DNA from: a virus
Strand: one strand, 5' to 3'
Virus record (IMG/VR): IMGVR_UViG_3300009085_000016
Span: 1-38,388 of that record
DNA length: 38,388 bases
This document shows positions 11,822 to 14,388 of the stretch, in pieces. Within the stretch, counting starts at the first letter, position 1. Each line of letters opens with the position of its first letter. The notes beneath the pieces are model-generated. The model worked only from the letters and a program-made list of their open reading frames with translations. It ran no database searches and was not told the DNA's origin. The translations under genes and the position numbers were made by a program.

Positions 11822-12457
11822 TTATTTTCTGAAGCTTTCGCCTGTTAATTCAATAAAGTGAAACATTTCTCTGAACCTGTCTGATATAATTGGATCGTTA
11901 AATATAGCGTCCAATTGCTCTAGTCTGTAGTTCGTTGTTATGTGTGTTTTTACCCCGTATTCTTGGTAAATGTCATAACGAACCTTCATAAACATGCGCA
12001 TAATGTCAAGATACGAAGTACCATAATTTGAGCCTTCATAGAGCCTCCCGAACTCATTTATCAGTATATTTCGAGGCTTCTTAACAGCACAACCGCGCTC
12101 ATTTTCTTGCAAATTGAATAACAATTTACTAGCCTGTAGGTCGGTTTGATTAAAGCGGATTATTTCCTCAGTTGACGTAATTACGTATGAATTGTTGGGC
12201 GCTGGATAAACGCTATTCAAAAATTTTGTGAAAACTGACATTATCGTACTTTTCCCAGTTCCTGATGACCCATTTAGAGCCACCATTTTTGCATTATCTA
12301 TCTCGCATGGTATTCCGCGTAGGAAATTAAACAATAATTCAAATACGGGGCGGTTCTGTGCGTTAAATTGATATTCCCCGCTTATTTCTTCGCAGCAAAG
12401 TTTTTTCAAATAGATTTTTAGGTGTTCTTCGCTTACACTACTATCAAGCCTGTACAT
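11822..12457 (-). CDS. DnaC/IstB-like AAA+ ATPase, probable helicase loader
   Basis: 211 residues from the ATG at 12457, which overlaps the initiator stop by 14 bases; longer in-frame starts at 12493 and 12520 are less economical. Walker A is ALNGSSGTGKSTIMSVF (about 60-76). ILINEFGRL (about 131-139) sits at the Walker B position but has Asn-Glu instead of the usual Asp pair. The sensor-1 region is THITTNYRLEQL, and DPIISDRFREMFHF supplies the arginine finger. This layout matches phage helicase loaders encoded next to an initiator. No replicative helicase was found here, so it would load the host DnaB. Confidence 0.78.
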   Translation of the reverse strand: MYRLDSSVSEEHLKIYLKKLCCEEISGEYQFNAQNRPVFELLFNFLRGIPCEIDNAKMVALNGSSGTGKSTIMSVFTKFLNSVYPAPNNSYVITSTEEIIRFNQTDLQASKLLFNLQENERGCAVKKPRNILINEFGRLYEGSNYGTSYLDIMRMFMKVRYDIYQEYGVKTHITTNYRLEQLDAIFNDPIISDRFREMFHFIELTGESFRK

Positions 12458-13331
12458 CTCTCGCTTCAGCGTTGTAGTCTGGAATTGGCACATTGAAGCG
12501 GTCTTTTCGTTTATCAGCATCGCGTTTTGCTTTTTCGGTTTGTTTTTCGATTTTTATTTTGAGCCAGTTTAGGAAGTGTTTCTTCAGCTCCTTGACTTCG
12601 CGCCGATGTTCATCATTCGCCCGGCGGTCGTTCTGAAATTCTTTGAGATATTTTGATAGTTCTCTGGCAGTGCATCCTTGCGCAAGCATTCTGTTCTGCC
12701 ATTCGAGATCGGTAAATAATGCCTCGGTATTGTCGGTCATTATTTCAGCAAACGATTTCAATTTTTCAGATTTGGGAAATGTTTCATTAACATTATCCTT
12801 TTCTATTATTTCGTTTTTTATCCTATCGTTTACTATACTATCGTTTATAGCATTGCGTTCGCATTGCGTTCGCATTGCGTTCGCATCATTATCGCATTGC
12901 GTTCGCATACTTTTTTCATGCGTTCGCAATGCGTTCGCATCATTATTTGATGCGTTCGCATTGCGTTCGCATTCGGATTGCATTGCGTTCGCATTATTCC
13001 AACGCTTGCTTGCTGATCGGCTTGCTGATTCTATTTTCTTATTTCTTTCTGCAAGTCTTTCGCTAATTGATTTTGAGTAAAATTTTCCGTTTTCTAACTC
13101 GAATAAGCCAGAATCAAATATTATCCATCTTACACAATCAGCATCTGCTCGAATGTCAAAGGCAATATTTTCAGCATCGGCAATCATCGAGTTGTCGCTT
13201 TGATACAGATCCTCGATTATCGACCAGAACGTGCCATATCCTGCCTGTCCATACTTTCGTAGTAATGCTTTTATTTTTTCGTCAGTTCTCGCATTATAAT
13301 CGTGCGAAAAATAAAACCTATCCTTTTTCAT
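12444..13331 (-). CDS. Replication initiation protein (DUF4373 / Lin1244-like)
   Basis: 295 residues from the ATG at 13331, which forms TGATG with the preceding stop. The N-terminal ~95 residues (FYFSHDYNARTDEKIKALLR, YGTFWSIIEDLYQSD) match the winged-helix-like DUF4373 domain of Gram-positive and Bacteroidota phage replication proteins. Residues about 110-165 are low complexity, rich in Asn, Ala, Arg and Cys, because they are encoded by an array of nine origin-like iterons. The C-terminal part is a charged helical segment that probably contacts the helicase loader encoded next. Carrying the origin inside the initiator gene recalls lambda O. Confidence 0.78.
   Translation of the reverse strand: MKKDRFYFSHDYNARTDEKIKALLRKYGQAGYGTFWSIIEDLYQSDNSMIADAENIAFDIRADADCVRWIIFDSGLFELENGKFYSKSISERLAERNKKIESASRSASKRWNNANAMQSECERNANASNNDANALRTHEKSMRTQCDNDANAMRTQCERNAINDSIVNDRIKNEIIEKDNVNETFPKSEKLKSFAEIMTDNTEALFTDLEWQNRMLAQGCTARELSKYLKEFQNDRRANDEHRREVKELKKHFLNWLKIKIEKQTEKAKRDADKRKDRFNVPIPDYNAEARDVQA
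12770..12993. other. Predicted replication origin: nine iterons plus AT-rich segment
   Basis: The 10-mer TGCGTTCGCA (arms TGCG and CGCA) occurs nine times, starting at 12854, 12865, 12876, 12898, 12919, 12930, 12951, 12962 and 12984. The spacings are 11, 11, 22, 21, 11, 21, 11 and 22 bases, i.e. always one or two helical turns. Directly beside the array (about 12770-12850) is a strongly AT-rich stretch with repeated CTATCGTTTA-like words, a candidate unwinding element. The arrangement inside an initiator gene matches the lambda-type origin. It is predicted, not shown. Confidence 0.75.
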
Positions 13332-13604: not shown

Positions 13605-13673
13605 AAAGCCCCACATTTCTGCGGGGCTATGGCGTATAAAGCAATCACGGTGAATTTTTATCCAGTCTGCCAT
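13584..13673 (-). CDS. 29-residue frame coupled to the KilA-N gene (doubtful)
   Basis: The ATG at 13673 forms TAATG with the KilA-N stop and opens a frame of 29 residues (MADWIKIHRDCFIRHSPAEM, then WGFLLFINI). The words W-I-K-I-H-R recall the N-terminus of some phage replication proteins, so it could be the remnant of one. Against it, the terminator hairpin at 13603-13628 lies inside the frame. Kept as a low-confidence call because of the coupling. Confidence 0.25.
   Translation of the reverse strand: MADWIKIHRDCFIRHSPAEMWGFLLFINI
13603..13628 (-). terminator. Terminator after the KilA-N gene
   Basis: Stem AGCCCC / GGGGCT with a 10-base loop, then TTTTT on the minus strand. The same stem is used after SSB at 14357-14384. 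Confidence 0.8.
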
Positions 13674-14278
13674 TATTTTATACTTTCTTTTACACCTATC
13701 CTAACAGCTTGATCTGTATCGTTTAATACATTACAAAGCAACTTTATTGACTCATGTATTTTGTCGCGCTTCTTTAGCTGATTTTCAGTTGCTTTTTGCC
13801 AATCTTCAACACCTAATTCTGTTTTTATATACTGTGCAACCTTCTGTATGTAGTTTGGGTATTCCCTTTTATTTGGAAATCTACTGTATATTGCTGCGCT
13901 CATTTCTTTATAACTATCACCGCTATCATTTCGGAATTTTATCAGATTATCGAAAAGCCACTCATAAACCTCTATTTTTAATTTTGGATTTATCGCAAGT
14001 GCAATATCAATAAAAAGAAGCGGGTGAACCCATGTATTAGAATTGCGCCCACGTGCAGAGGTTATAATATTGCCGTATTTTCTCTCCAATTCAGCTGTAA
14101 ACTCTGCACATGATTTTGATTTCAGATATTGAGATAAATTGAATTCGTTAATTCCATTTTGCACCCTCCACTTATTGCCTGCATTTACCAATTCAGTAGC
14201 AGAAAAAAATTCAGTCTTACTTTGCTGGCTGATCTCACAACCAAACAACTCTCTTTTCATTATAACTTGCGTGTGCAT
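13673..14278 (-). CDS. KilA-N domain DNA-binding protein
   Basis: 201 residues (or 195 from the second Met). Residues about 8-105 form a KilA-N domain: FFSATELVNAGNKWRVQNG, a Leu-Ser-Gln-Tyr helix, then GRNSNTWVHPLLFIDIALAI and IEVYEWLFDNLIKF, the characteristic Trp-Val-His-Pro helix and end strand. KilA-N domains are found in phage antirepressors and regulators and bind DNA. The C-terminal ~90 residues are helical and charged and have no recognised domain. It has its own promoter and terminator, so it is expressed separately from SSB upstream and the replication operon downstream. A candidate regulator of the box family, by inference only. Confidence 0.78.
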   Translation of the reverse strand: MHTQVIMKRELFGCEISQQSKTEFFSATELVNAGNKWRVQNGINEFNLSQYLKSKSCAEFTAELERKYGNIITSARGRNSNTWVHPLLFIDIALAINPKLKIEVYEWLFDNLIKFRNDSGDSYKEMSAAIYSRFPNKREYPNYIQKVAQYIKTELGVEDWQKATENQLKKRDKIHESIKLLCNVLNDTDQAVRIGVKESIK

Positions 14279-14356: not shown

Positions 14357-14384
14357 AAAAAAAGCCCCACATAATTGCGGGGCT
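14357..14384 (-). terminator. Terminator after SSB
   Basis: Minus-strand stem AGCCCC / GGGGCT followed by TTTTTTT, immediately after the SSB stop. Confidence 0.82.
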
Positions 14385-14388
14385 TCGA

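Follow-up and report, generated by a model that had tools for sequence, protein, structure and literature searches.

What is a run of nine identical 10-mers doing inside the gene of a phage replication initiator? We examined this in the window (the whole stretch of viral DNA that was analysed, 38,388 bases). An exact search placed the nine copies of TGCGTTCGCA on the + strand at 12854-12993, starting at 12854, 12865, 12876, 12898, 12919, 12930, 12951, 12962 and 12984 and thus spaced by 11, 11, 22, 21, 11, 21, 11 and 22 bases; in the gene sense the repeat reads TGCGAACGCA. No exact copy was found elsewhere in the window, for which base composition predicts about 0.05 copies over both strands. 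The array and its members, numbered in the gene direction, are as follows.

12854-12993, - strand: array of nine exact TGCGAACGCA iterons, pitch 11/21/22 bp, coding for linker aa ~113-160
12984-12993, - strand: iteron 1, TGCGAACGCA, exact match
12962-12971, - strand: iteron 2, exact match
12951-12960, - strand: iteron 3, exact match
12930-12939, - strand: iteron 4, exact match
12919-12928, - strand: iteron 5, exact match
12898-12907, - strand: iteron 6, exact match
12876-12885, - strand: iteron 7, exact match
12865-12874, - strand: iteron 8, exact match
12854-12863, - strand: iteron 9, exact match

The initial annotation, made from the sequence alone, had the count and all eight spacings right. 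It had also noted inverted arms, and TGCGAACGCA is indeed a near-palindrome, TGCG-AA-CGCA, with 4-bp arms flanking a central AA. It had drawn the array from 12770 to 12993, of which the end holds; the array begins at 12854, and the earlier start takes in the flanking AT-rich stretch. That all copies face one side of the helix is approximately and not strictly true: the phase vector is 0.77 at 10.5 bp per turn, where the ends of the array drift about one third of a turn apart, and reaches its best value, 0.99, at 10.8. The nine iterons use all three reading frames (2, 3 and 4 copies), so no single peptide accounts for the array.

The gene that contains the array, its predicted DNA-binding domain and the gene that follows are these.

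12444-13331, - strand: replication initiator gene, 295 aa from the ATG at 13331 (Pfam and PHROGs)
13002-13307, - strand: predicted DNA-binding (winged-helix) domain, aa 9-110 (AlphaFold2)
11822-12520, - strand: DnaC-like helicase loader, overlapping the 3′ end of the initiator ORF (phrog_3277, 3.1e-8; phrog_50, 2.1e-6)

The protein matches Lin1244_N in Pfam (PF14297, E=1.8e-11, 45.1 bits against a gathering cut-off of 25) and phrog_2562, 'replication initiation protein' (3.2e-19), with DUF7833 (PF25200, 27.3 bits) as its C-terminal domain; the order is thus N-terminal winged-helix Lin1244_N, disordered linker, C-terminal DUF7833. An AlphaFold2 model built with 97 sequences has pLDDT mostly of 94-98 over aa 21-120, with helices at 18-44, 53-60 and 64-73 and strands at 78-80 and 83-85. 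Confidence is low over about aa 140-200, a part for which the array (aa ~113-160) and the adjoining AT-rich stretch largely code, and the array-coded linker is predicted to be disordered. Foldseek comparison of the model with the PDB gave weak matches (E>0.1), many of winged-helix type, and a sequence search of solved structures gave no convincing match. The initiator has no match to a plasmid Rep domain (RepA/Rep_3) in Pfam. The genes upstream encode SSB and ERF. Used as bait in a viral-contig search, the helicase loader returned no relatives. Rfam had no matches in the region, and a promoter scan gave fewer sites than shuffled sequences.

The array is followed, in the gene sense, by an AT-rich stretch at about 12760-12853.

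12760-12847, - strand: candidate DNA-unwinding element (DUE), A-rich coding strand, with 15-bp repeats (3 x 5 bp) at 12811-12847 (TRF, stability)
12848-12854, - strand: AATGCTA, junction of array and AT-rich stretch (window sequence; same word in relatives)

The repeats here are AATGCTATAAACGATAGTATAGTAAACGATAGG, in tandem with a period of 15 bp (TRF). AT content is 77% in the block 30-60 nt after the array and 73% in the block 60-90 nt after it. The least stable 60 bp of the candidate DUE, 12782-12841, fall within the 0.8% least stable 60-bp windows by nearest-neighbour energy over the whole window, in which about 15 other stretches melt more easily. The AT-rich flank and the helicase-loader gene after the array, both claimed in the initial annotation, are therefore present. 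It had also suggested looking for a GC-skew switch at 12.8 kb; none was found, the skew being negative from 1 to about 16 kb and apparently tracking gene strand, and skew is uninformative here.

We searched viral contigs for an exact 21-mer formed by two 10-mers at 11-bp pitch, in two sets according to the spacer base. The first base gave at least 120 viral contigs, 80 loci were examined for the other, and 3 loci were common to both sets. Among the matches listed over both sets this pair occurs in 200 viral contigs, and in 192 of them it lies in an initiator gene. For the first spacer base, 118 of the 120 among the matches listed are in initiator genes (111 HMM matches, four fragments at contig edges and three divergent relatives) and 2 are outside genes; for the other base, 74 of 80 are in initiators (72 ORFs and two cut at a contig edge) and six outside. 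The motif is in the gene sense in all 72 tested of the latter set. The genes that carry it belong to two families, a Lin1244_N type and a DUF1376/YdaU type (21/21 aligned domains of the latter match PF07120), whose motif-bearing domains share a median identity of 22% and at most 29% among the pairs tested. The next gene encodes a primase/helicase, DnaB or a DnaC loader in many cases, and in EF62phi and a Porphyromonas phage the initiator is followed by the loader. In Vibrio phage 1.052.A the exact 10-mer occurs three times in the gene, 158, 331 and 342 nt from its start.

A second sample was collected by protein, with profiles of the N-domain alone, in three sets of 63, 74 and 80 unique genes. 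The exact 10-mer is present in 48/63, 38/74 (DUF1376/YdaU relatives) and 11/80, raw fractions that are inflated by profiles built partly from motif-bearing genes, by the choice of the best-scoring loci and by the non-independence of relatives. When the genes are clustered at 70% identity, 18 of the 65 Lin1244-type clusters, with pairwise identities as low as 31%, contain the motif, as do 6 of the 13 DUF1376-type clusters. For two of the sets, control ORFs from these loci contained 2 copies in 236 kb and none in 478 kb; those of the DUF1376 set had 32 copies in 381 kb, many of them probably in ORFs that overlap the same gene in another frame or strand.

The surroundings of the array are conserved as well. 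AATGCTA is found in the linkers of 50/63, 51/74 and 14/80 relatives, against 1/172, 4/264 and 3/361 control ORFs. A-rich, strand-asymmetric repeats follow the array, with a period of 5 bp in the Lin1244 type and 7 bp in the DUF1376 type, neither a multiple of three; these number 4.67 and 4.33 per gene, against 0.18 and 0.25 in controls. Many relatives have a further motif copy about 150-180 nt upstream, inside the code of the DNA-binding domain, in a frame or orientation that differs by lineage; this upstream copy is absent from the window.

Codon choice shows at what level the repeats are kept. Within the peptides [ND]A[ND]AM and A[MLI]RT[HQ] of the protein-sampled genes, GCA is used at 33/33 positions (background 0.34), AAC at 30/31 (0.36), CGA at 19/20 (0.14), ACG at 20/20 (0.19) and GCG at 25/33 (0.17), figures that are descriptive since related genes are not independent. 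The codon test, the use of different frames and the existence of non-coding copies show that the repeats are selected as DNA rather than as protein. The proposal that the array dictates the protein segment is thus borne out by linker codons fixed to the motif, by three frames and by copies outside genes, together with the predicted disorder.

Other lineages have other letters at the same pitch. In members without the 10-mer, exact 7-mer repeats at lags of 11, 22 and 33 bp number 1.81, 1.26 and 3.61 per gene, against 0.17, 0.10 and 0.46 in controls. By a per-gene codon shuffle of linkers (p<0.05), phased repeats were detected in 50/60, 46/76 and 33/71 genes of three samples (83%, 61% and 46%), and among genes without the motif in 8/14, 38/66 and 13/30; control ORF stretches gave 6/150, 15/150 and 8/150 (4-10%). 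Visible variant iterons include TGCAAACGCA, TGCAACCGCA, TACGAACGTA, TTCAACCACAG and ATAGCAATGCTAT, and in TACGAACGTA both arms have changed together. EF62phi, LBR48, Bordetella IFTN2 and Moraxella Mcat25 have repeats other than the 10-mer. The initial annotation had asked whether related phages keep the spacing while the sequence and the encoded residues vary, and they do. It had named as a refuting case the same initiator with no phased repeats; this has a divided outcome, with detection in the majority of two samples and just under half of the third, and about 17-54% of relatives, by sample, in which the codon-shuffle test did not detect them statistically.

In eight contigs among the matches listed (2 + 6 over both sets), all of them short or without a recognised initiator, the array lies outside initiator genes. 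At L108:880-1180 a non-coding module has a pair and, about 150 bp on, further copies, then ATGCTA and repeats of the TTTCT type, and at L114:5020-5080, also non-coding, three copies stand beside A-rich AAAGA-type repeats. The L108 module adjoins a probable prohead-protease-type gene. The others are TGCGAACGCATTGCGAACGCA arrays with no recognised initiator gene there (L399:9662, L400:2520, L412:595, L438:4160-4201, L442:3894-3936 and L462:393), and the first five of these contigs are apparently related, GC-rich and have surrounding sequence in common.

The elements of an origin of this class are found together at the locus: a short sequence repeated in the initiator gene, an adjoining AT-rich region and an adjoining helicase loader or helicase gene. 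Identical repeats, or others with a similar spacing, recur there in hundreds of related viruses, so the initiator gene very probably carries the replication start. We regard it as highly probable, judging from sequence, that the array is an iteron-type phage origin that sits in the gene of its own initiator and works as lambda ori does. This is supported by the array itself and its conservation as DNA across the family, by the repeats downstream and the neighbouring genes, and by the disorder predicted for the linker. The initial annotation had proposed just such an origin, shaping the protein linker, and those comparative tests that could be run favour it, GC skew excepted.

We infer that the initiator binds the array, the strands open, the loader is recruited and the site acts as an origin, along the following lines. 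The N-terminal winged-helix domain would bind each 10-bp near-palindrome TGCG-AA-CGCA, and up to nine sites, about one or two helical turns apart, would allow initiators to stack on one flank of the DNA. The A-rich repeats that come directly after the array in the gene would melt as the DNA is bound and bent. Onto the strand thus opened the initiator would bring the helicase loader of the next gene (in relatives, the primase/helicase or DnaB encoded alongside), and the loader would deliver the helicase to the opened AT-rich stretch. An origin within a coding region would be sited where the protein tolerates any sequence, here the disordered linker between the DNA-binding and C-terminal domains. 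The lambda origin is activated by transcription, and since the array lies inside a transcribed gene a similar coupling may operate here.

Other roles for the array have to be weighed against this. It could serve regulation or partition (autoregulation, a parC-like centromere, silencing) as a binding site for the initiator or for some other protein of phage or host: direct-repeat arrays of about 11 bp occur at some plasmid centromeres, and a few of the present arrays lie in non-coding DNA near structural genes. No partition gene or protein was recognised among the eight neighbouring products scanned with Pfam and PHROGs, however, the array is well within the gene and away from a promoter position, and across relatives A-rich repeats and a helicase loader or helicase gene come next; we consider such a role unlikely. 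The array might instead be a recombination junction, a shared linker that lets unrelated N- and C-terminal halves of initiators swap between phages, as the same words in very divergent genes at a two-domain border would suggest. Such a junction needs neither multiple phased copies nor other sequences at the same pitch in other lineages, and neither conserved downstream repeats nor a second copy about 180 nt upstream in the DNA-binding domain, which makes this reading very unlikely.

The two remaining explanations deny the DNA repeat a function of its own, and we find both extremely improbable. That a functional NANAMRTQCERNANA peptide is what matters, the DNA repeats being its by-product, draws on the peptide NANAMRT(H/Q), common among relatives; it is contradicted by the codon test, in which choice is nearly fixed to the DNA word with infrequent codons included, by copies in different frames that give different peptides, by arrays outside genes and by the predicted disorder of the segment. 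Growth of a functionless tandem repeat by slippage could well have contributed to this particular array: its uneven 11/21/22 spacing and its partial longer periods of 32 and 54 bp suggest expansion, and its nine copies, against at most five in the relatives examined, make the window the extreme case. As a full account, slippage is contradicted by conservation, since the same 10-mer is kept in 18 initiator clusters whose pairwise identity falls to 31%, and also in a second family.

The preferred reading, an origin in the initiator gene, follows a known principle (lambda O, TP901-1, SPP1). Lambda ori has repeated initiator sites in the middle of gene O, then an A+T-rich opening region and then the helicase loader gene (PMC5043065), and the window has the same succession of sites within the initiator gene, AT-rich region and loader gene. 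Lambda differs in having four near-perfect 19-bp inverted-repeat iterons bound by O dimers, where the window has 10-mers at about 11-bp pitch, up to nine in number, so that the earlier remark on a shared logic with unrelated repeats was apt. The initiators differ too, the window protein matching Lin1244_N and giving no match to the lambda O family in the Pfam and PHROGs scans. According to the sections of PMC8965321 considered here, the replisome organizers of the lactococcal phages TP901-1 (ORF13) and Tuc2009 (Rep2009) bind direct repeats in their own genes, which are the origins; by that description they resemble the window, and those sections report no common 10-mer. SPP1 has direct repeats and an AT-rich DUE inside gene 38 (oriL) and a free-standing oriR among late genes (PMC6316719). 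Its oriL resembles the in-gene array of the window, with an initiator (gp38) and repeats that are unlike; its oriR is comparable to the L108 and L114 non-coding arrays, which by this analogy are possible free-standing second origins. The plasmid iteron origins of P1, F and RK2 likewise have helically phased direct repeats beside an A+T-rich region (PMC5043065), but plasmid iterons bind monomeric Rep, whereas the window has no plasmid Rep match in Pfam and its array lies within the initiator gene.

The Rac prophage of E. coli, whose origin is named oriJ (PMC3945230), has in ydaU-ydaV (DUF1376 and a putative ATP-binding protein) an initiator of a related family. We rejected ydaU as a carrier of the same 10-mer; it has other near-palindromes. 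In the K-12 gene (L139:6012-6077, linker) TGTTCAAACA occurs twice, 33 bp apart, together with TGTTTGAACA, phased and at the same position in the gene as the window's iterons, from which they differ in their letters. These repeats are a candidate for the Rac origin.

In the open-licence literature searched we did not find the 10-mer, its layout, or its occurrence in two initiator families that are about 22% identical. Exact motif strings gave unrelated matches there, mostly primer and reporter-gene papers, and DUF4373 was not found together with 'replication initiation'. We lean towards regarding these loci as a distinct and widespread class of phage origin, in which TGCGAACGCA is kept by Lin1244_N and DUF1376 initiators with about 22% identity between their DNA-binding domains, in phages of different bacterial phyla. 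Its layout would be a copy or pair about 180 nt upstream in the code of the DNA-binding domain, a phased linker array, AATGCTA, and 5- or 7-bp strand-asymmetric repeats; other lineages would have changed the word and kept the pitch, and a few phages would have the whole module in non-coding DNA.

A specific, testable role and a specific predicted DNA target are thereby proposed for two large phage protein families, one of which Pfam lists as of 'unknown function'. The 10-mer and its pitch offer a sequence handle on origins in hundreds of uncultured phages, and in prophages, including the Rac candidate of E. coli K-12, and the iteron variants paired with their initiators form a data set on the co-evolution of initiator and origin specificity. 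The array further illustrates clearly how a DNA signal can dictate a protein segment in three frames.

Some other features of the window were noted. Two nearly alike GC-rich, terminator-like hairpins (GCCCCGCA...TGTGGGGC and a T run) lie at 13607-13628 and 14361-14386, each after one of two neighbouring - strand genes. The product of 13673-14278 is a KilA-N domain protein by Pfam (PF04383) and an 'amidase' by PHROGs (phrog_6095), annotations that conflict. A perfect 12-bp tandem repeat, TTTCTGGCTCAG, is present in 3.6 copies at 2381-2423.
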